Both the position numbers and the translations under genes were made by a program. Of a stretch of 64,000 bases of DNA, positions 3,820 to 27,640 are shown in pieces (position 1 is the stretch's first letter; each line of letters starts with the position of its first letter). Source of the DNA: Schleiferia thermophila (GTDB taxonomy: Bacteria; Bacteroidota; Bacteroidia; Flavobacteriales; Schleiferiaceae); the NCBI RefSeq assembly GCF_003337435.1, contig NZ_QPJS01000002.1, positions 434,001 through 498,000 of the forward strand. The letters are read 5' to 3'. The notes under the pieces are model-generated. The model saw only the letters and a list, made by a program, of their open reading frames with translations. It was not told the DNA's origin and made no database searches.

Positions 3820-4467
3820 TTGACTAAAATCACCAGAGTGCCGATTTATTTCTCATCAACCTTTGCAGATGCCAACATTGTGATTTGGAAAATTGAGGAA
3901 GATGAAGAATTCTTTTGGGCTAGTTCAAATTTAAAACTTCCGCCTAAAGACGCTTACCGTATCAAAGGTTATACAAATGTATACAAAAGAGTCGAATCAC
4001 TCGCCGGCAGGTATTGTGCTCACATTGCTTCAGGCGGGCAGGTGAATTTTCAATGTTTTGAAAACGACCCTCCACAGGCGGATAAAGGATATTTAAGTAT
4101 TGCACACACCTCGGGTTATGCTGGAGCAGTTTATCATCCGCTCGTGAAGGTTGGTATAGATATCGAAATAATCAGCAGACTTGTGCGTGACCGAATTTTC
4201 ACGCGCTTTGCCTCTGAAGATGAGATGAAAACAGGTACAGAGAATTACAATAGGTTGGTCTTGTGGTGCGCAAAAGAAGCCATCTATAAGGCAGGTCATT
4301 TGAAAGGCTTGAATTTTAAGGAACATATAAAAGTCGAGTGGAATACTGAAACGCAAGGTGTAGGTACTATACATTTCGGAGGTCTATACAAAATATTTGC
4401 ACTACGAAATGTGTTGATTGAAAATCACCTGATTTGCGTACTATGTGTAGAAAATGCTCAATTATAG
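3820..4467 (+). CDS. 4'-phosphopantetheinyl transferase superfamily protein
   Basis: 215 residues from a TTG at 3820; no ATG is in frame nearby and GTG 3838 is the alternative, so the start is uncertain. These enzymes move the phosphopantetheine arm of CoA onto a serine of acyl or peptidyl carrier proteins. The two signature motifs are present: VGIDIEII (Mg-binding Asp/Glu, about residue 110) and WCAKEAIYKAG (about 148), in Sfp/HetI-like spacing. No polyketide, peptide-synthetase or carrier-protein gene lies nearby, so the partner is unknown. The coding end overlaps the following receptor gene by 25 bases, pointing to translational coupling. Confidence 0.85.
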   Translation: MTKITRVPIYFSSTFADANIVIWKIEEDEEFFWASSNLKLPPKDAYRIKGYTNVYKRVESLAGRYCAHIASGGQVNFQCFENDPPQADKGYLSIAHTSGYAGAVYHPLVKVGIDIEIISRLVRDRIFTRFASEDEMKTGTENYNRLVLWCAKEAIYKAGHLKGLNFKEHIKVEWNTETQGVGTIHFGGLYKIFALRNVLIENHLICVLCVENAQL

Positions 4468-6431
4468 TAAAAACAGTATTTCCATTTGTATTCATTATCA
4501 CACCCCTTTTTGCTCAAAAAGACACCTCAGTTGTTCTTAAGGAGGTCAGTGTTATTGGTAGTCGGACAGAAATTCCACTGAAAGAAACTCCACGCAACAT
4601 TTGGGTGATTACATCCGATGAAATCAGGCAATCAGCCAGCAGATCAGTAAATGAACTTTTACAATACTCGGCGCTTCTGGATGTGCGATCACGAGGCCCC
4701 CTCGATGCGCAAACGGATTTGAGCATTCGTGGAGGTACATTTGACCAGGCACTGGTGATGGTAAACGGCATCAAAATGCTGGACCCTCAGACCGGTCACC
4801 ATCAGATGAACTTGTTTTTACATCCCACAAATATCGAGCGAATAGAAATTCTTCCGGGTGGAGCATCGAGATTATATGGACAAGGTGCATTTTCAGGAGC
4901 CATCAACATCGTGACCAAGCCCGCTTCCAACAGGATTTTTGCCGACTTGTCCGTAGGAGATTTCGGCCTGGTGAACGCAGCAGCTGGTTGGAGCCGATCC
5001 TACAAAAAGGGATTTTTCGTCCAACTCTTCGGGCATTTAGGCAGCCATTCGGGATATATGGAAAATACAGATCTGAATTCTTATGCTGCTACGCTCTCCT
5101 TGGGCCGGAAACGCTCCAGAAGCTCATGGGAATGGCAAACATCCTTTCACAACAAACGATTTGGTGCTCAGAACTTTTATTCCTTCAGATTTCCATTTCA
5201 GCAAGAGGAAATCAGACTGTTTACTTCGAGCTTTCAATACAGGAAAAAAAGCGACCTGTGGACTCATACTTTCGTTGGATTTTACCGCGAGCACCAGGAT
5301 CGCTTTGAACTCTTCAGAGAAGGTCCGGGGTGGTTTCGCCGGACTAACGGGCTTTTTATCCGAAATGGAGATACAGCCAGATTTAGCCCTACCTTGTTTT
5401 ACACCGGGCACAATTTCCACCGTACACATGTAGCATCAGCTGAGTGGACCAGCACCCTGGATATGGGTTTCTTTGGTTTTTTGAATCTTGGCACTGAGCT
5501 GAGATCAGAGTGGATTTACAGCAATCGCCTGGGATCACCCCTTTCTAAGCCTGTACAAGTATCGGGATATCCCGATGCATTCTACAACCGGTATGCACAG
5601 CGTTTAAATATTGCATTCACCATTGATCATGCATTGCCTATAAACGATAAGTGGTCTGTAAATTACGGTTTATGGGTCAATCAAAACTCTGATTTTGGGA
5701 GACGTACATTTTTCGGAGCGGAACTGCAGTACAAGTATAACCAGCAAACATCCATGTGGGCAGGCTACAACAAGGCCTTTCGCATACCTACTTACACGGA
5801 TTTGTATTACAACGTGGGAGGAGCCGTTGGCAGCATCGACCTTCAACCGGAGCTGGCCGACAACTATGAAATAGGAGTTAGGAAAACGTTTCATAAATCC
5901 GTTTTCAACGGTTCGGTTTATCTCAGAGATGCAAAGAGCTTGATAGACTGGATAGTGCGTGAAAATTCCAATCTGGTGGAGGCGGCCAATCTGACGGCGG
6001 TCCTTTACTGGGGTGCTGATGCTCAGTACAAACAACTTTTTGATGCCAATCCACTGAAAATCTCCTGGATTCAGCTCTCAACGGGTTACAACGATTTCAG
6101 AAGGCAATTCAGCGGATTTCAATCGGTCTATGCCCTGGATATCTTGCAGTGGAAGGGTGCTTTTGTAATGCACCACGCCTTGACAAAAGCTTTGGACTTC
6201 AATTACAGTTTTGTATACCTGAAACGCTCCGGAACCTACACCGATGCTTTTGACCAAATACAAGCCTATCCGGATGTTTTGCTTGTCAATTTAAAAACCC
6301 AGTACAGAATAAAGGAAAACTACGCGGTGTATGCTGAAATTACCAATTTGCTCAACCAGATGCACATGGACAGGGGGGGTATTCTGTTACCAGGCAGGTG
6401 GCTCAGGGCCGGCGCAACTTTGCAATTATGA
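4443..6431 (+). CDS. TonB-dependent outer membrane receptor (BtuB-size)
   Basis: 662 residues from ATG 4443 (a TTG at 4434 would add three). A signal peptide ends around FAQKD. The plug domain runs to about residue 165: LKETPRNIWVITSDEI, SIRGGTFDQALVMVNGIKM, IERIEILPGGASRLYGQGAF and GAINIVTK are classic plug motifs. The rest is a 22-strand-type barrel ending in an aromatic-alternating last strand (LRAGATLQL). There is no N-terminal carboxypeptidase-like repeat or SusD partner, so this is a BtuB/FhuA-like transporter rather than a SusC. The ligand is not evident. Adjacency to a HemD-like gene, with which it overlaps by 4 bases (ATGA), weakly suggests a porphyrin, cobamide or metal-chelate substrate. 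Confidence 0.9.
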   Translation: MCRKCSIIVKTVFPFVFIITPLFAQKDTSVVLKEVSVIGSRTEIPLKETPRNIWVITSDEIRQSASRSVNELLQYSALLDVRSRGPLDAQTDLSIRGGTFDQALVMVNGIKMLDPQTGHHQMNLFLHPTNIERIEILPGGASRLYGQGAFSGAINIVTKPASNRIFADLSVGDFGLVNAAAGWSRSYKKGFFVQLFGHLGSHSGYMENTDLNSYAATLSLGRKRSRSSWEWQTSFHNKRFGAQNFYSFRFPFQQEEIRLFTSSFQYRKKSDLWTHTFVGFYREHQDRFELFREGPGWFRRTNGLFIRNGDTARFSPTLFYTGHNFHRTHVASAEWTSTLDMGFFGFLNLGTELRSEWIYSNRLGSPLSKPVQVSGYPDAFYNRYAQRLNIAFTIDHALPINDKWSVNYGLWVNQNSDFGRRTFFGAELQYKYNQQTSMWAGYNKAFRIPTYTDLYYNVGGAVGSIDLQPELADNYEIGVRKTFHKSVFNGSVYLRDAKSLIDWIVRENSNLVEAANLTAVLYWGADAQYKQLFDANPLKISWIQLSTGYNDFRRQFSGFQSVYALDILQWKGAFVMHHALTKALDFNYSFVYLKRSGTYTDAFDQIQAYPDVLLVNLKTQYRIKENYAVYAEITNLLNQMHMDRGGILLPGRWLRAGATLQL

Positions 6432-20075: not shown

Positions 20076-21395
20076 ATGAAAAATTTGTGGACCCAACTCT
20101 ACCGAAGCAATAAGTTTATGAGCCTGATGGGCAATGGCTCTGCTGCCTTGCTGGGTCTGCTCAGTTTTGCTTTGCTCGCACGCTCCCTTGAGCGCGATGA
20201 GCTGGGTATCTGGGTGTTTTTTATGACGGTTTTTACCCTCTTTGATATGATTCGAAGCGGATTGCTCAGCAATGCTCTGATCAAGCGTATAGGAGAGAGC
20301 GATACCGACGATGAAAAACACGCATATACCGGAGCTGCCTGGAGATTTGGGTTGTGGCTTTCGGCCGGTATTTCCTTGCCCATAAGTTTGTTTTTTATAC
20401 TTTTTCCTTCTGGCTTTTCAGAGGAATTGGTTTTCGTAGGAAAGTGGTTCTGGCTGATATCCATCATCAGTCATCCCAACAGTATCTCCATTTGGTTGCT
20501 CAATGCCTATAACAGGTTTGACAGGCTCTTTTGGGCTCGCAGTATCTCTCAGTTTGTGTACTTTTTAGGTTGTCTGTTCAATTTTTTATACGGGATAGGA
20601 CTTGAGTTGATTGTATGGTCTTACATAGGGGGCTGGCTGGCAGCAGGTGTTTTTACTGCACTTAACGGATGGAACGGCATTCAATACTTCTTTAAAGGCA
20701 GCAAAGAACACATCAGGTCCCTCTACGATTTTGGCAAATACAGCATGGGAACTTTGCTGGGGAGCAACCTACTTAAGAGCACGGATACTTTTCTGCTTAT
20801 GTTTTTTATGGGACCTGCGCCAGTGGCACGGTATAATGTCCCGGAGCGGTTGCTGGGGCTTTTGGATATACCTATCCGGTCATTGGTTTCTACGGCCTAT
20901 CCAAAGCTCATTTCCGTACGGAAACACATGGGAGAAGAGCACTTTCTGAAGGAATACGAAGTGCAAACAGGTCTGTTGTTCTTGCTTGTGCTGCCTATAG
21001 CTTTGGTTACTTTGATGTTTTCAGATCAACTGGTAGTCATATTGGCCGGCCGAGATTATATGGACGCATCCATACTGCTGAAAATATTCGCTATTTATAC
21101 TGCTTTAATACCGTTGGATCGGTTGAGCGGGATCGCACTTGAAGTCTTTGATCTTCAGAAGCAGAATTTTTATAAAGTGATGCTTATGGCACTGGTAAAT
21201 GTTCTGGGGGATGTTGTGGCGATTAAGGTGTTCAAAAGCGTTACGGGGGTAGCATTGGTATCTATTTTCACGTATGGAAGCGGGATTCTTTTTGGCTATT
21301 ATTTCCTTGGGAATAAAATTAAATTCAGGCCCCTGTCTATGTTGTATTCCGGATTTGGTGAGTTAATAAAGTTATTGAAAAGTTTCAAAAAATAA
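20076..21395 (+). CDS. Polysaccharide flippase (Wzx-like, MOP superfamily)
   Basis: 439 residues with about 12 hydrophobic helices. LARSLERDELGIWVFFMTVFTLFDMIRSGLLSNALIKR in the first 70 residues is the hallmark N-terminal region of oligosaccharide flippases (quoted here only as MOP-type spacing around LGIWVFFMTVFTLFD). GPAPVARYNVPERLLGLLDIP lies near residue 250. Inferred: transports lipid-linked repeat units outward before polymerisation. It directly precedes the regulator and export cluster beginning at 21457 (62-base gap), which makes it the likely flippase of that polysaccharide. Confidence 0.85.
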   Translation: MKNLWTQLYRSNKFMSLMGNGSAALLGLLSFALLARSLERDELGIWVFFMTVFTLFDMIRSGLLSNALIKRIGESDTDDEKHAYTGAAWRFGLWLSAGISLPISLFFILFPSGFSEELVFVGKWFWLISIISHPNSISIWLLNAYNRFDRLFWARSISQFVYFLGCLFNFLYGIGLELIVWSYIGGWLAAGVFTALNGWNGIQYFFKGSKEHIRSLYDFGKYSMGTLLGSNLLKSTDTFLLMFFMGPAPVARYNVPERLLGLLDIPIRSLVSTAYPKLISVRKHMGEEHFLKEYEVQTGLLFLLVLPIALVTLMFSDQLVVILAGRDYMDASILLKIFAIYTALIPLDRLSGIALEVFDLQKQNFYKVMLMALVNVLGDVVAIKVFKSVTGVALVSIFTYGSGILFGYYFLGNKIKFRPLSMLYSGFGELIKLLKSFKK

Positions 21396-21456
21396 TTTTT
21401 TTAATAGTGAAATTTTTTCCATTTTTGAAACAAATTTCCACAAACTGAAAAACTCA

Positions 21457-22809
21457 ATGAATCTATTTAAAGTTTTTTTAGCGGAAGATGATGAGTTTTA
21501 CGGAAAACTATTAAGGCACCACCTTTCTCTCAATCCTGATTTTGATGTAGAATTGTTTACTTCCGGCGGGGACCTGTTCAACAATTTGTACAAAAGACCT
21601 GATGTAATAAGCCTTGATTATACACTACCGGATATGAGCGGGGCAGAATTGCTCAGAAAAATCAAAAAGCAATATCCTGAGATTCCTGTAATCATCGTAT
21701 CAGGCCAGGAAGACATCACCACCGCTGTCAATTTACTCAAGGAAGGTGCTTACGATTATATTGTAAAAGACAAGGATACCAAAGACCGCCTTTGGAATTC
21801 GATTCGGCATATCAGGGAAAATGCAAAACTCAAGACCGAAATCGACAGACTGCGTGAAGAGGTCAATCTGAAATACGATTTTTCAAACATCAAAGGCAGC
21901 AGTCCTGCCATTCGGTCGGTGTTTAAACTCATCGAAAAAGCAGCACAATCCAATATAACCGTAAGTATTTACGGGGAAACAGGTACAGGAAAAGAACTGG
22001 TAGCGAAGGCCATTCACTACAACAGTGGCCGGAAAAAAAAGCCTTTTGTAGCCTTCAACATAGCCGCTATACCCTCAGAATTGATTGAAAGTGAACTTTT
22101 TGGTCATGAAAAAGGGGCCTTTACCGGGGCGATCTCCCGGCGTATCGGCAAATTTGAAGAGGCTGATGGTGGCACCTTATTTCTCGATGAAATCGGCGAG
22201 ATGGAGTTACACCTACAGGCCAAGCTACTCAGAGTGCTGCAGGAAAAAGAGGTCGTGCGAATTGGCAGCAATACACCTATTAAAATTGACTGCCGCATCA
22301 TATGCGCCACACACCGGGATCTGACCGAAGAAGTCAAGGCTGGAAAATTCCGTGAAGATTTGTACTACAGGCTGTTAGGTCTTCCGATACATTTGCCTCC
22401 ACTACGGGATCGAGGTAATGACATCATTATCTTAGCAAAGCATTTTGCTGATGAATTTGCCAAAGAAAATAAAATGGATAAAGTTACAATCACACCGGAA
22501 GCACAGGAGAAACTGATGCGCTACCATTGGCCAGGAAATGTACGCGAGCTAAAAGCAGTAATCGAGCTAGCTGTAGTAATGTCGGAAGGTGGAAAAATCA
22601 CTGAAAGTGAAATCAATTTTTCCAGCTCAAACACCATTCAAAACTTCTTTAATGAAAAGGGAACCTTGCGGGATTTCACCAATAAAATCATCCAATATTA
22701 CCTGGAAAAACACAACTTTAATGTGCTCGAAGTTGCAAAAAAACTCGACATCGGGAAATCTACTATTTACCGCTTGATCAAAAATAAAGAAATCACAATA
22801 AATAAATAA
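21457..22809 (+). CDS. Sigma-54-dependent response regulator (NtrC/AtoC family)
   Basis: 450 residues. Receiver domain 1-120 with the acidic pocket AEDD (9-12), phosphoacceptor Asp54 in ISLDYTLPDMSG, VSGQED and the conserved Lys in YIVKDKD. AAA+ domain about 145-385: Walker A GETGTGKE, the sigma-54 contact loop GAFTGA, Walker B GGTLFLDEIGEM, and the arginine-finger region. A Fis-type helix-turn-helix at the C-terminus (NVLEVAKKLDIGKSTIYRLI). All catalytic residues look intact, so it should activate sigma-54 promoters when phosphorylated. It heads a run of signalling and polysaccharide export genes; no histidine kinase is encoded beside it. Confidence 0.95.
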   Translation: MNLFKVFLAEDDEFYGKLLRHHLSLNPDFDVELFTSGGDLFNNLYKRPDVISLDYTLPDMSGAELLRKIKKQYPEIPVIIVSGQEDITTAVNLLKEGAYDYIVKDKDTKDRLWNSIRHIRENAKLKTEIDRLREEVNLKYDFSNIKGSSPAIRSVFKLIEKAAQSNITVSIYGETGTGKELVAKAIHYNSGRKKKPFVAFNIAAIPSELIESELFGHEKGAFTGAISRRIGKFEEADGGTLFLDEIGEMELHLQAKLLRVLQEKEVVRIGSNTPIKIDCRIICATHRDLTEEVKAGKFREDLYYRLLGLPIHLPPLRDRGNDIIILAKHFADEFAKENKMDKVTITPEAQEKLMRYHWPGNVRELKAVIELAVVMSEGGKITESEINFSSSNTIQNFFNEKGTLRDFTNKIIQYYLEKHNFNVLEVAKKLDIGKSTIYRLIKNKEITINK

Positions 22810-22816
22810 AAAAGCC

Positions 22817-23152
22817 ATGGGAAATATGTACAACCTCAGACAATTGGAGGAGCTCTCCGGCGGGATGTCGGAGTTCGTCGATTCGATGATTGAAACCTTC
22901 CTGGAACACACCCCTTCCCAACTCAACGATATGGTGAAGGCCTTCAAAGAAGGACGTTGGATGGATATGGGAAATCTTGCCCACAAGATAAAACCTTCCA
23001 TAGACCTCTTTGAAATTCCCGGTATCCAGCAAACCATACGAGAAATCGAAAAAATCGGCAAATCCGGAACCTCTGCACCAGACCTCGAACAAAAAGTAAT
23101 GGAAGTAGAAAAAATACTAAATCAAGTATTCAACCAGCTGAAAAACCGCTAA
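22817..23152 (+). CDS. Stand-alone HPt (histidine phosphotransfer) protein
   Basis: 111 residues, predicted all-helical. The phosphorylatable His56 sits in GNLAHKIKPSIDLF, matching the HPt helix pattern HxxK; the following residue is Pro rather than the common Gly. HPt proteins shuttle phosphoryl groups between receiver domains in multistep relays. Flanked by two response regulators, 8 bases after the first and 15 before the second, so a relay between local receivers (or from a distant hybrid kinase) is the natural inference. Confidence 0.85.
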   Translation: MGNMYNLRQLEELSGGMSEFVDSMIETFLEHTPSQLNDMVKAFKEGRWMDMGNLAHKIKPSIDLFEIPGIQQTIREIEKIGKSGTSAPDLEQKVMEVEKILNQVFNQLKNR

Positions 23153-23166
23153 AACAAAAAGTATTT

Positions 23167-23544
23167 ATGACAAAAAAGCAGGTACTGATCATTGACGATC
23201 AGCCAGTAATGAGAAAACTGCTCGAACAGTTTCTTAAAGACAAATATGAAGTCAAAGCCCTTGAAAATGGGCGGGAAGCTCTGGAATGGATGTACGACGG
23301 CAACATTCCCGATGTAGTAATAGCTGACTTGAATATGCCTGAAATTGACGGGTTTGAATACATAAAAAGAGTCCGCGAAAGCGCCTTCTTTCAGGATATT
23401 CCCTTGATTGTATTATCAGGCGAGGATTCATCAACTGAAAGAATAAAATGCCTGAAGCTCGGTGCCAATGATTACCTCATAAAACCGTTTAACCCGGAAG
23501 AATTGGCATTGAGAATCAATAACTTGGTGAGAATACGTTCGTAA
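23167..23544 (+). CDS. Single-domain response regulator (CheY-like)
   Basis: 125 residues, receiver domain only. Asp10/Asp11 (IIDDQP), phosphoacceptor Asp54 (VVIADLNMPEIDGFEY), Ser in VLSGED and Lys in YLIKPF are all in place. No output domain, so it acts by binding a partner or by passing phosphate onward. Its sequence around Asp54 aligns without gaps to the receiver-like domain of the next gene product, whose Asp is replaced by Glu. Confidence 0.93.
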   Translation: MTKKQVLIIDDQPVMRKLLEQFLKDKYEVKALENGREALEWMYDGNIPDVVIADLNMPEIDGFEYIKRVRESAFFQDIPLIVLSGEDSSTERIKCLKLGANDYLIKPFNPEELALRINNLVRIRS

Positions 23545-23563
23545 GCATACAAAATATGCCACT

Positions 23564-24721
23564 ATGACTCATATCATTTATATAGGGGAAGATCCGGAAG
23601 TGATCAGATTGTTTTCAGGAAGGCAAGATGTAGAGTTTAAGACAGTCCGAAATGCCGTTCAATTCGACAAATTTTTCAATCAAAACAATATGCAACCAGA
23701 TTTGATACTTTGTGAAAAGACACTTAAGGGAATGAATGGATTTGAGCTCTTTAATTATTACAAAAACATTTTAAAAGAAAAAGGTATTCCCTATGTGCTG
23801 GTGGACCAACATTTTGGAAATTATACAAAGCGATTGTATCTGAAAGAAAAAGTTACAGATATCTATCAAAAACCCTTAGATCCTCAGATGGTCATTGAAC
23901 GGATTCCCTTTTTAAAAAATATAGAAGAAAGCCGTAAAAACAAGCTCGTAAAACTTTCGCAAAAACCTTACAGAATTCCATTGGCCAAACGAATATTCGA
24001 TATTGTTTTTGCATCTGTGGCATTGATAGTAGTTTCCCCCATTTTATTAATAGCAGCCATAGCCATAAAACTGGAATCCCCCGGACCGATTTTTTACAAA
24101 TCAAAACGAGTAGGAACAGGATACAGGATTTTTGATTTTTATAAACTGAGATCCATGTACACCGATGCAGATCGAAGGCTCAAAGAATATTTACACATGA
24201 ATCAATATAAAACAGACAGCACTCAGACAACCCTTAATGATAACTTACCCAAGCAACCAAAAAGCAAATTTGCCAGCTCGGTAGTGCTCATCCACAAAGA
24301 CGGTACACCGCTGACTGAGGAGGAATATAAAGAATTGAAAAAGCAAATGTCAGCCGGAACATTTTTTAAGCTTAAGGATGATCCAAGAGTTACCAAAGTT
24401 GGAGCATTTCTTAGAAATACCTCCATTGACGAGCTTCCTCAGCTCATCAATGTACTCAAAGGCGATATGTCAATCGTAGGAAACAGACCTTTACCCCTGT
24501 ATGAAGCAGAGCAGCTCACTTCCGACGATTGGAGCGAGCGCTTCTTGGCTCCGGCAGGTATAACGGGGCTTTGGCAGGTCGAAAAACGCGGCAAATCCGA
24601 CATGAGCGAAGAAGAGCGAAAAGCGCTCGACAACCAGTATGCAAGAAATTTTTCTTTTTGGAACGATATAAAAATCATCCTAAAAACCATTCCGGCTTTA
24701 TTTCAAAAAGAAAATGTATAA
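23564..24721 (+). CDS. Polyprenyl-phosphate sugar-1-phosphate transferase fused to an N-terminal pseudo-receiver domain
   Basis: 385 residues. Residues 1-120 fold like a receiver: IGEDPE at the acidic pocket, PDLILCEKTLKGMNGFELF with Glu51 exactly where the phosphoacceptor Asp belongs, Val in place of the switch Ser/Thr, and Lys103 retained in IYQKPL. Residues about 134-385 are a bacterial sugar transferase (WcaJ/WbaP catalytic type): KRIFDIVFASVALIVVSP membrane hairpin, SPGPIFYKSKRVG, FYKLRSMYTDAD, LRNTSIDELPQLINVLKGDM, VGNRPLP and AGITGLWQV. Known role of that domain: loads the first sugar-1-phosphate on undecaprenyl phosphate to start exopolysaccharide repeats. Inferred: the fused domain is a locked, phospho-mimicking docking module. 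Its end overlaps the next gene by 8 bases. Confidence 0.92.
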   Translation: MTHIIYIGEDPEVIRLFSGRQDVEFKTVRNAVQFDKFFNQNNMQPDLILCEKTLKGMNGFELFNYYKNILKEKGIPYVLVDQHFGNYTKRLYLKEKVTDIYQKPLDPQMVIERIPFLKNIEESRKNKLVKLSQKPYRIPLAKRIFDIVFASVALIVVSPILLIAAIAIKLESPGPIFYKSKRVGTGYRIFDFYKLRSMYTDADRRLKEYLHMNQYKTDSTQTTLNDNLPKQPKSKFASSVVLIHKDGTPLTEEEYKELKKQMSAGTFFKLKDDPRVTKVGAFLRNTSIDELPQLINVLKGDMSIVGNRPLPLYEAEQLTSDDWSERFLAPAGITGLWQVEKRGKSDMSEEERKALDNQYARNFSFWNDIKIILKTIPALFQKENV

Positions 24722-25442
24722 AAAAACCATTCTCTTATGTGCTTTTTTGGCTTGCTGTACAGCAGGCTATACACAAGGGGTAGACCGTAGAAAAGCCCTT
24801 GAACTGGATTCACTTTTCGTTAATCTTCTAGACTATTTGCCTCCAATCAACGAATTGATTGATACAGCGGTCGCCAATTCTCCGGAAGTAAAGTATTGGC
24901 ATGCACAAGTCAAACTCAGAGAATATGAAGTAAGCATCGTCCGAAAAGATTGGGCTAGAGATATCTTTATTACGGGCCAGTATCAAGGAGGTACGCTGGG
25001 TGCTATTCTTGGCCCCGACGGCCCCCCTCTCTTTATAGGTTACCTGGTTGGTGCCGGAGTGAGGATACCATTGTCTACAGTGGTGGGAAGAAGAGACAGA
25101 ATAGGCGCAGCCGAAGCCTGGCTTGAAAGCACCATTGCCAAACGAGACGAAGCCATTCGAAACATTAGAGAACTGATCTTCAACGAATACCAAAAACTCC
25201 TGATGATACAACGCAAAATAGCCATCCTGGCTGAAACAAATGAATCCACTTCACTTATTATGGAAATGGCCGAAGAACGATTCAGACAAGGTGAGCTTAC
25301 CCTCGACCAATTGGGCACCAATACAGAACTGAAAACCAAATACAGCCTTATCTACGAAGAACTCAGAACGGACTTCTTCAATACCTATTCACAACTGGAA
25401 CGCCTTGTAGGCATTCCGTTTTCCAAATTTGAAAAGCATTAA
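24714..25442 (+). CDS. Half-length TolC-family-like outer membrane/periplasmic protein
   Basis: 242 residues with a signal peptide ending near AGYTQG. The mature part starts PPINELIDTAVANSPEVKYWHAQVKLREYEVSI, the TolC-family opening helix (typical xxAxxNSPxVxxxxA), passes through a short beta region (FITGQYQGG, VGAGVRIPLSTV) and returns in a long coiled coil (AEERFRQGELTLDQLG). Canonical TolC proteins are about 430-500 residues with two such repeats; this has one. Overlap with both neighbours (8 bases upstream, 1 downstream) places it firmly in the polysaccharide export operon. Inferred: outer-membrane conduit or periplasmic tunnel component in place of a Wza-type protein, which is absent here. 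Confidence 0.75.
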   Translation: MYKKTILLCAFLACCTAGYTQGVDRRKALELDSLFVNLLDYLPPINELIDTAVANSPEVKYWHAQVKLREYEVSIVRKDWARDIFITGQYQGGTLGAILGPDGPPLFIGYLVGAGVRIPLSTVVGRRDRIGAAEAWLESTIAKRDEAIRNIRELIFNEYQKLLMIQRKIAILAETNESTSLIMEMAEERFRQGELTLDQLGTNTELKTKYSLIYEELRTDFFNTYSQLERLVGIPFSKFEKH

Positions 25443-27640
25443 TGAGCCTGATAAAGTTTCTCAGACTTTTTAACAGGAACTTTAAGTACCTGATGGCCTC
25501 CTCAATGACGCTGGCCATTTTGGTATTTTTGATGGTCAAAAGCAAACCCAAAGAATACGAGTCAGAAACAGAAATTTATACCGGGATAGCTTCCGGTCTC
25601 AATCTCACCAATGTAGACCGCACCAATGTAGATTTCTTTGCCACTGCCAATGCCTATGACAACCTTATTAACATCATAAAATCGCGGCAAACCCTGGAGG
25701 AAACCGGCGAAGAGCTCCTTGCATTGCACCTTTCACTCGATGGCCCGACAGCCGAAATCATCGGTGATGAGGCCTGGAGACAGATGATCGAAATCCTCAC
25801 TCCTGAGCTGTACAACGAATTGAAAAGTACCAAAGGCATCGACTCATGCCTGGCCAACATCAGAGCCTGGAAACAAAAAAATTACAACACCTTCAGAGGT
25901 AAAATCATCTTCAACGCTGAAGAATCGCCCTACAGCTTCAAAGCCATCAGCAAAATCAATGTATCCAGAATTCAGAATTCCGACTTAATCAACATCAAAT
26001 ACAAATACATCGATCCGGGGATTTGTAAGTCAACCCTCGAAATTCTCTCAAGAGTATTTATACGGCGAATGAACGAAATCAAAGCCAGCCAGAGCAACAA
26101 CGCTGTCGAATATTTCAAAAAGCAAGTTGCAATGGCCCGCGAAGAACTCAATGCCGCCGAAGACCGCCTCAAACAGTTTCGGGTACAAAACAACATCATC
26201 AACTACGGCGAGCAGACCAAAAGCATCGCCACCATGAAAGAACAAATGGAAGACGAGTTTCAAAAAGAATTAGCCGTGAGAGCCTCTAACAAGGCCTCAC
26301 TCGAGAAACTCGAAGAACAACTGCAGGTCAACAAGGTGATCATTAAATTTTCAGATGAGCTGCTTGAAAAACGTAGACAATTGGCCGAAATCCAGGCTCA
26401 GATTACCACCATGGAAATTTACTACAACGACCCCAACACCATCAACATACTACGCCGAAAAGCTGCCGAACTCCGCGCAGAGCTTTCCGACCTGCTCACC
26501 AAGCGCTACCAGTTTTCTCGTACTACTGATGGAGTCCCCAATCAGGCCTTGCTGCAGGAATGGCTCAAATACACACTTGCCCTCGACGAAAGTGAGGCCA
26601 GGTTGAGAATTTTTGATGAGCGAAGGAAGTACTTCGAAAAACTCTACAATGAGTTTGCACCACTCGGGTCCCTTTTGGCCAGATATGAGCGTGAAATCGG
26701 CATCGCAGAGAAAAATTATCTGGAGCTGCTTCATTCACTCAACCAGGCCATCATGCGCCAGCAGAGCGATCTGATAGCATCCGGGGGACTGGTGGTATCC
26801 GTACCTCCATACTTTCCACTTAAGCCTCTGCCCTCAAAAACGGCAGTAATGGTAGCCGCATCCGGCGTTGTAGGCTTTGTCTTGCCCCTACTGATCATCA
26901 TATTGCTCGAATTTTTTGACTCCACTTTAAAAAACCCAATCAGAGCCGAAAGTGTCATCGGCAAAAAAATTCTGGGCACATACCCGTCCTTAAAACTTAC
27001 CAAAGCCGATAAAGGAGTGGACCTCGAATGGGTCAAAAAGCAGACCGTAGGGCTCTCCCTCCAGACCATCCGGCTTGAGCATTACATCAAAAGCAAAGAA
27101 ATTTCACGCCCTTTTATCGTGGCAGTGCTATCTACCCGTACCGGTGAAGGCAAAACCAGCATGATTCAGGAGATTGCTAATCGTCTCGTCATGCTTCAAT
27201 ACCGGGTAATGGTCCTGGTACCAGAAGATTCGTTTGTCAATGAAGACAACACTTTTTTTGACCGCATTACCTTTAAAAACGACAAAACCTTCGAAGCAGC
27301 TAAACGAGTGGAAGATCTCATCCCACCAGGATTCACAGCAAGCCTCTACGATTACCTGTTCGTAGAAATCCCTTCACTGATGAACAATCAGTACTCCATC
27401 AACCTCTCCATGCAAGCTCATTTACATATCCTCGTAGCCAGGGCCAATCGCACTTGGGTAAAAGCAGATGAGTTCCTGCTCAGTGAATATTCCAGAAGCG
27501 TAAATTCCGAAATCAGAACGCTTCTCAACAAAGTAAAAATCGAAGAGCTGGAAGTAGTACTCGGCGAAATACCAAAGGAAAGGAGCTTCCTGCGAAAGCT
27601 TATCAAAAGGTTTGTAGCTGCAGAATTCAAAACCGCCTGA
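25442..27640 (+). CDS. Wzc/GumC-like polysaccharide chain-length and export protein with degenerate kinase domain
   Basis: 732 residues. Seen: first membrane helix about 15-33, Wzz-type periplasmic domain, long coiled coils about 215-420, second helix about 466-488 (SGVVGFVLPLLIIILLEFF), then a cytoplasmic Rossmann-like domain with a P-loop STRTGEGKT (about 564-572). In BY-kinases a Walker A' Asp-x-Asp and a Walker B Asp follow; here the corresponding places read VMVLVPEDS and YDYLFVEIP (Glu642), and there is no C-terminal tyrosine cluster. Known family role: sets chain length and couples polymerisation to export. Inferred: a nucleotide-binding but non-kinase variant. TAATG junction with the preceding gene. 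Confidence 0.87.
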   Translation: MSLIKFLRLFNRNFKYLMASSMTLAILVFLMVKSKPKEYESETEIYTGIASGLNLTNVDRTNVDFFATANAYDNLINIIKSRQTLEETGEELLALHLSLDGPTAEIIGDEAWRQMIEILTPELYNELKSTKGIDSCLANIRAWKQKNYNTFRGKIIFNAEESPYSFKAISKINVSRIQNSDLINIKYKYIDPGICKSTLEILSRVFIRRMNEIKASQSNNAVEYFKKQVAMAREELNAAEDRLKQFRVQNNIINYGEQTKSIATMKEQMEDEFQKELAVRASNKASLEKLEEQLQVNKVIIKFSDELLEKRRQLAEIQAQITTMEIYYNDPNTINILRRKAAELRAELSDLLTKRYQFSRTTDGVPNQALLQEWLKYTLALDESEARLRIFDERRKYFEKLYNEFAPLGSLLARYEREIGIAEKNYLELLHSLNQAIMRQQSDLIASGGLVVSVPPYFPLKPLPSKTAVMVAASGVVGFVLPLLIIILLEFFDSTLKNPIRAESVIGKKILGTYPSLKLTKADKGVDLEWVKKQTVGLSLQTIRLEHYIKSKEISRPFIVAVLSTRTGEGKTSMIQEIANRLVMLQYRVMVLVPEDSFVNEDNTFFDRITFKNDKTFEAAKRVEDLIPPGFTASLYDYLFVEIPSLMNNQYSINLSMQAHLHILVARANRTWVKADEFLLSEYSRSVNSEIRTLLNKVKIEELEVVLGEIPKERSFLRKLIKRFVAAEFKTA

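Follow-up and report, generated by a model that had tools for sequence, protein, structure and literature searches.

A pseudo-receiver fused to a small phosphoglycosyl transferase in Bacteroidota and the intact response regulator encoded beside it

The DNA analysed here, a stretch of 64,000 nucleotides from Schleiferia thermophila (NCBI RefSeq assembly GCF_003337435.1, contig NZ_QPJS01000002.1, positions 434,001 to 498,000) that we call the window, encodes a protein in which a domain of the receiver family precedes a predicted polysaccharide-initiating sugar transferase. The architecture is real and widely spread, and our main finding is that the fusion is paired with an intact, free-standing single-domain response regulator. 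The conserved pairing, read from the sequences, suggests that regulator and fusion work together to switch the enzyme. We consider it probable that they form a two-gene module: a phosphorelay would act in trans, by way of the pseudo-receiver, on the step that initiates the polysaccharide. The argument concerns the following features.

23167..23544, forward strand: free single-domain response regulator with an intact pocket, D10, D11, D54, S84 and K106 (Pfam Response_reg, E 1.2e-30)
23564..24721, forward strand: fusion of a pseudo-receiver and a small monotopic phosphoglycosyl transferase (open reading frame of 385 residues; Pfam, AlphaFold2 (AF2) and VIA)
23564..23923, forward strand: pseudo-receiver domain, residues 1-120 (AF2 (beta-alpha)5 fold; hhalign to free regulators)
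23714..23716, forward strand: codon of Glu51, the phospho-Asp position (alignments)
23858..23860, forward strand: codon of Asp99, four residues before the active-site Lys position (K-4), the most conserved pseudo-receiver column (column entropy)
23870..23872, forward strand: codon of Lys103, the active-site Lys position (alignments)
23900..23902, forward strand: codon of Arg113 (K+10), the second most conserved column (column entropy), equivalent to RstA Arg111 by its spacing from the Lys
23987..24703, forward strand: Bac_transf catalytic domain, residues 142-380, with D146-X12-P159 and D289-E290 (Pfam, E 2.8e-62)
24203..24361, forward strand: residues 214-266, an insert in the transferase for which the confidence of the AF2 model is mostly low; free of Cys in the window protein

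The comparison draws on two samplings: the 30 best matches of a search through 395 genomes of the phylum (29 besides the window's own genome), together with the 80 best among 411 relatives from a contig scan. Because best matches were taken, long matches are favoured in the sample, and since matches at E up to 1e-30 occur in 52 of the 395 genomes, the gene is far from universal in the phylum. The 109 loci with a transferase reading frame (L009 to L117) comprise 65 fusions, 20 short Bacteroidota transferases, 20 more distant transferases and four unclear cases (L093, L036, L097 and L099). L080 and L011, which had a motif misplaced by the finder or a long N-terminus, were placed among the fusions by hand. 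L016, whose pseudo-receiver is identical to that of L055, counts towards adjacency and is omitted from the residue counts and later statistics; L062, truncated at its N-terminus, remains among the 64 rows of the residue counts and is omitted from the distance and mutual-information analyses. L078 is classed as short; its tblastn match starts before the reading frame, so it is probably a fusion whose frame is broken.

A free regulator was scored as adjacent when a reading frame of 100-180 residues lay directly upstream on the same strand. This arrangement was found in 64 of the 65 fusion loci, in 5/20 unfused short Bacteroidota transferases (L078 among them) and in none of the 20 distant ones; fusions and unfused transferases differ with a Fisher p of 1.3e-11, computed on rows that are not independent. 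The two samplings separately gave 16/17 and 48/48; species overlap between them is known for L016 and L055 only, and thinning to less than 50% pseudo-receiver identity left 44/45. The pocket (D/E-D, D and K) is intact in all 64 of these regulators. A functional partnership with the upstream regulator, which the initial annotation had put forward, is likely in view of these 64 loci. In L093, one of the unclear loci, a regulator lies 107 bases upstream.

At the family level, residues 1-120 belong firmly to the receiver/pseudo-receiver domain family (PF00072), as judged from profiles and a predicted structure. Pfam Response_reg matches residues 20-114 weakly, with E 4.1e-4 for the full-length protein and 5.1e-5 for residues 1-139 on their own, both short of the curated cut-off, which the relative L011 clears (E 1.5e-15). 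A profile of 21 fused N-termini aligned by hhalign to one of 18 free regulators scored 99.6% (E 1e-24). The AF2 model of the fusion, built with 48 sequences, has a mean predicted local distance difference test score (pLDDT) of 81.5 and a predicted template modelling score (pTM) of 0.57; residues 1-120 follow the (beta-alpha)5 order at pLDDT 88-94 per block of ten, with Glu51 at the end of beta3, and VIA comparison with the receivers among the matches listed gave Z of about 14-16. The earlier proposal of a pseudo-receiver joined to a polyprenyl-phosphate sugar transferase is thus borne out by Pfam, hhalign, AF2 and VIA, and the model of the full protein gives a receiver fold. Because Response_reg was detected at E up to 0.01 in 16 of the 48 fusions scanned, domain annotation can overlook many of them.

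Glu51 aligns with Asp54 of the free regulator, and Lys103 with Lys106, in both the MAFFT and the profile alignments. The alignment is not gapless, as had been stated: MAFFT places a two-residue gap in the N-terminal part. Chance is an unlikely source of the Glu51/Asp54 correspondence because of the profile and fold results. The pocket was described as kept, which holds for the Lys and fails for the acidic pair, where Gly8-Glu9 has lost one acid; the switch Ser/Thr position had been read as Val and is Asp81. Since the phosphorylation set (acidic pair, D and K) is incomplete in the window, with Gly8-Glu9, Glu51 and Lys103, and the two acids, D51 and K103 occur together in 0/64 fusions, the domain is a pseudo-receiver.

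The C-terminal part is a small phosphoglycosyl transferase of the PglC type, as predicted from sequence and model. It consists of the Bac_transf domain (residues 142-380) with the D-X12-P motif of the re-entrant helix and the DE dyad, motifs defined as in PMC12802240; D146, D289 and E290 are invariant among 48 sequences and P159 is nearly so. PglC (8e37) superposes on the fusion model with a VIA Z of 21.0 and a root-mean-square deviation (r.m.s.d.) of 2.9 over 182 residues. The CoA_binding_3-like cytoplasmic domain of large monotopic enzymes (WbaP/EpsZ type) is missing: at E up to 1 the fusion does not match CoA_binding_3, whereas the genome's own 488-residue enzyme (L005) matches. We considered a decayed WbaP-type cytoplasmic domain as the origin of the N-terminus and ruled it out, given the missing match, an hhalign score of 0.1% to L005 and the predicted receiver fold. 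The insert carries at least four Cys with a CxxC motif, possibly a metal site, in 37/64 fusions; it is Cys-free in 27/64, including L038, L039, Prevotella/Bacteroides loci and Saprospiraceae loci, in the last of which it is very short. The source genome is 2.6 Mb in 23 contigs and 99.8% complete. The nearest named relative, Thermaurantimonas aggregans (Schleiferiaceae), has 76% identity and conserved gene order.

The initial annotation held that Glu51 and Lys103 lock the domain in an on-like state and make it a constitutive docking platform, perhaps for the free regulator in a receiver-receiver heterodimer. Glu is indeed the most frequent residue at position 51 (E 26, D 11, Q 10, Y 6, A 4, N 3, S 2, K 1 and one gap among 64 distinct fusions). 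Lys103 occurs in 9/64 fusions, and Glu51 stands in 8/8 of the Lys-bearing rows in which position 51 is readable against 18/55 without Lys (Fisher 4e-4; rows not independent), and in 7/7 after thinning. As a phosphomimetic, Glu51 is therefore possible for this lineage, since it accompanies Lys in all eight readable rows; it is present throughout the window's own clade (the window, L038 and L039). As a general explanation, this docking platform seems unlikely: 38/64 fusions lack Glu (37 with other residues, one with a gap), both acids at positions 8 and 9 are kept in 1/64, and position 81 is Ser/Thr in 35/64 and Asp in the window. In the thinned rows, positions 51 and 103 rank 29th and 112th of 118 columns by entropy. 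A pseudo-receiver review (PMC12632262) regards a Glu that replaces the phospho-Asp as an appealing explanation for activity, and one that has sometimes been disproved. Two extreme views of the residue can be discarded: Glu51 is no fixed family trait, with 26/64 fusions carrying it, and no strain-level accident, as L038 and L039 carry it and it accompanies Lys. Glu51 is one tolerated replacement, a side detail rather than a defining feature.

The strongest conservation lies elsewhere. Judged by column entropy over 65 rows, D99 is the most conserved of 130 columns and R113 the next; with 45 thinned rows and 118 columns, the same two lead in the same order. Strict D99 with R113 is found in 46/64 pseudo-receivers, the window included, and an acid with a base in 59/64; the equivalent acid and base are kept in 48/63 neighbouring free regulators. 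The two positions, K-4 and K+10, are those of the central pair of OmpR/PhoB-type regulators. According to PMC4117788, the alpha4-beta5-alpha5 dimer of RstA is centred on an intermolecular salt bridge, Asp97-Arg111, and Lys101 is the active-site Lys; VanR has the same Asp97/Arg111 pair, termed highly conserved among OmpR/PhoB regulators in PMC8329863, and E. coli OmpR/PhoB dimers are treated in PMC2586830. The pseudo-receiver residues are lost together: the 3/63 rows that are non-acidic at 99 have no basic residue at 113 either (p 2.5e-4). In the free regulator, too, the two positions are lost together (p 0.003). These association tests involve 3 to 13 losses, uncorrected for kinship, and have low power.

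Two known systems offer templates for the pairing. PleD of Caulobacter also combines an intact receiver, a pseudo-receiver and an enzyme, and in the Protein Data Bank set it gives the best sequence match to the free regulator as well as to the pseudo-receiver profile; D (K-4) and R (K+10) are also present in its second domain, as read from the alignment. It differs in being one chain of receiver, pseudo-receiver and diguanylate cyclase, whereas here two genes are involved and the enzyme is a transferase. We tentatively propose, at not quite even odds, a split PleD across Bacteroidota, in which the phosphorylated free receiver would bind in trans a pseudo-receiver that has kept its dimer face and lost its chemistry, and would so control the first step of surface-polysaccharide synthesis. 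In the second template, from Myxococcus xanthus, the single-domain regulator EpsW, when phosphorylated, is reported to stimulate EpsZ, the initiating transferase (PMC12802240). The likeness lies in a regulator encoded in the polysaccharide locus and acting on the polysaccharide-starting enzyme, and a single-domain regulator encoded with the initiating transferase is what 64/65 loci show; the difference is that the fusion is a small transferase with a pseudo-receiver and that EpsW-EpsZ is known from experiments, the window pair from sequence and predicted structure. The same paper cites O'Toole 2021 on small monotopic transferases that carry receiver domains, which resemble the fusion in having a receiver-family domain on a small transferase, and it suggests wider use. 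Pseudo-receivers in general share the receiver fold without the catalytic set, and receiver/pseudo-receiver heterodimers are named as a possibility in PMC12632262. The terms 'glycosyl' and 'sugar transferase' are absent from the main text of that review. In titles and abstracts on such fusions, regulated transferases and pseudo-receiver heterodimers, a regulator-transferase pair appeared, among the matches listed, only in PMC12802240; subscription papers are thinly covered there, and the pairing may be published.

Several results weigh against control through the pseudo-receiver and are gathered here. The state of D99 and R113 is not associated with that of their counterparts in the free regulator (p 0.57 to 1), and in 15/63 rows, most of them labelled as or placed with Flavobacteriaceae and Saprospiraceae, the regulator lacks one or both pair residues while the pseudo-receiver keeps both. 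The covariation speaks for pairing inside or between pseudo-receivers over a canonical heterodimer, and hence against the neatest version of the initial annotation; the docking face is unsettled because the two residues co-vary mutually and not with the regulator. A homodimer fits this pattern of the sequences at least as well as a heterodimer. The pseudo-receiver might then be a dimerisation module, in which transferase chains pair via alpha4-beta5-alpha5 with D99 of one chain meeting R113 of the other, in a role parallel to that of the cytoplasmic domain of large WbaP-type transferases, and the free regulator would tune the dimer or bind elsewhere. We regard this as possible, though somewhat doubtful. 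In its favour are the top conservation of the two columns, their joint loss without association with the free regulator, and the intermolecular pair of RstA, which recurs in VanR. The pair could equally be an intramolecular salt bridge, however; its losses are confined to five rows, Bacteroidales where labelled, and thus to few events, and the internal covariation of the free regulator's pair indicates that association within a protein is not specific to homodimers. Small transferases are, moreover, described as monomers in PMC12802240. Dimerisation alone does not explain the adjacency of the regulator, and it may coexist with the two-gene module.

Further points on the same side come from the loci themselves. 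L020, L025, L028 and L029 are unfused transferases with an intact upstream regulator, so the regulator may act without a pseudo-receiver; conversely, one fusion, L015, has no regulator (its upstream gene resembles a histidine kinase by eye). Tree-independent contrasts of fusion against adjacency amount to two pairs on starred branches, too few for a test. Histidine kinases are found in only 2/10 scanned upstream neighbours. In an AF2 model of the L038 regulator read through into its fusion, the domains are confident (pLDDT 85.8; pTM 0.59), but the model is uninformative about their contact; the tandem cannot be superposed on the PleD receiver pair (VIA r.m.s.d. about 16 Å over about 250 residues); Foldseek ranks PleD first for it, at r.m.s.d. 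15.6-21.6 Å, and the domain arrangement is unlike that of PleD. The mirror-tree partial correlation was tried as a signal specific to the pseudo-receiver and rejected: both partial distance correlations exceed shuffles (for pseudo-receiver and regulator the largest of 1000 was 0.12), yet 0.49 for pseudo-receiver and regulator is hardly above 0.43 for transferase and regulator. Mutual information between regulator and fusion in 63 pairs outlined no clear face, the sequences being too few.

The four unfused loci also raise the alternative that the regulator acts directly on the transferase domain and that the pseudo-receiver is a decayed appendage with a mainly structural role. The rapid divergence of the pseudo-receiver would suit such a role: its mean distance is 0.80, that of the transferase 0.35. 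From the window to L038, identity is 97.6% for the regulator, 82% for the transferase and 68% for the pseudo-receiver. We find this improbable, as the fold is well predicted, D99 and R113 are conserved through deep divergence, and adjacency tracks the fusion (64/65 against 5/20).

The gene neighbourhood supplies further phosphorelay and polysaccharide parts.

20076..21395, forward strand: polysaccharide flippase-like gene, upstream (Pfam Polysacc_synt, E 5.1e-17)
21457..22809, forward strand: NtrC-type sigma-54 response regulator with receiver, AAA+ and Fis-type helix-turn-helix domains (Sigma54_activat, E 5.7e-73; Response_reg, E 3.3e-20; HTH_8, E 1e-4)
22817..23152, forward strand: free-standing histidine phosphotransfer (HPt) protein (Pfam Hpt, E 1.8e-7, above cut-off)
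24714..25442, forward strand: outer-membrane efflux protein, OEP/TolC-like, downstream (Pfam OEP, E 1.6e-19)
25442..27640, forward strand: Wzz/Wzc-like polysaccharide co-polymerase, downstream (Pfam Wzz, E 2.6e-4, and NCBIfam TIGR03007, E 1.4e-24, both below cut-offs)

The genes form a one-directional run from 20076 to 27640, and from 21457 onward they overlap or are separated by fewer than 20 bases. The co-polymerase and the sigma-54 regulator match XrtA/PEP-CTERM families (TIGR03007 and TIGR02915) below cut-offs. The phospho-His of the HPt protein is probably H56, in LAHKIKP. At E up to 0.001, Hpt is matched twice in the genome, here and within a 755-residue frame, and HisKA 23 times. Both the window and L038 include a free HPt gene in this run. 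Three short-transferase loci (L025, L028 and L029) carry another receiver-like gene upstream of the regulator; in L025 and L028, both unfused and the two that were scanned, it lies directly upstream and encodes HATPase-REC-Hpt, cut by the locus end. L045 has a divergent PAS-HisKA-HATPase-REC-Hpt kinase. In L040 a sigma-54 factor gene (3847-5316) lies divergently upstream of the regulator-transferase pair. Matches to the sigma-54 promoter consensus were not enriched in the window (21 against 36 expected) and none lay at 20-28 kb; sigma-70-like sites were about as frequent as chance predicts (13 against 11.7 expected).

The sigma-54 regulator in the window, or a close relative of it in five loci (L038, L052, L054, L057 and L060), stands just upstream, which might suggest that the free regulator serves that protein or a kinase and is adjacent to the transferase for unrelated reasons, without contacting it. 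This is very unlikely, since the ten scanned upstream neighbours differ (besides the two kinases, three sugar-nucleotide enzymes, a TonB receptor, UvrB, RpoN, a DUF4842 protein and one without a match, some on the opposite strand), while regulator and transferase remain together.

The two-gene module that we favour thus starts from the predicted receiver fold, the loss of the phosphorylation set throughout the fusions sampled, the near-invariant adjacency of the regulator and the conserved dimer-face pair. The genes would be co-expressed, and a kinase encoded elsewhere would pass phosphate to the HPt protein (22817-23152) and from there to the free regulator (23167-23544). The phosphorylated regulator would then act in trans on the neighbouring transferase, presumably by physical contact, through an N-terminal pseudo-receiver that itself has no residues for phosphorylation. 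The gated step would be the transfer of sugar-1-phosphate to undecaprenyl phosphate, the first committed step towards the polysaccharide of the same gene run, and by analogy with EpsW-EpsZ we infer that the regulation is an activation.

In this family a pseudo-receiver has an enzyme output of a known kind and a candidate partner that is nearly always adjacent. Because that partner is encoded next to it, and because the genera concerned include ones with cultured members (Flavobacterium, Mucilaginibacter, Bacteroides and Thermaurantimonas), the switching of a pseudo-receiver becomes directly testable. If the two-gene module is true, phosphorelay control of polysaccharide initiation would extend from myxobacteria to Bacteroidota. 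If the split PleD is true as well, it would be a widespread answer to how one class of bacterial pseudo-receivers is switched.
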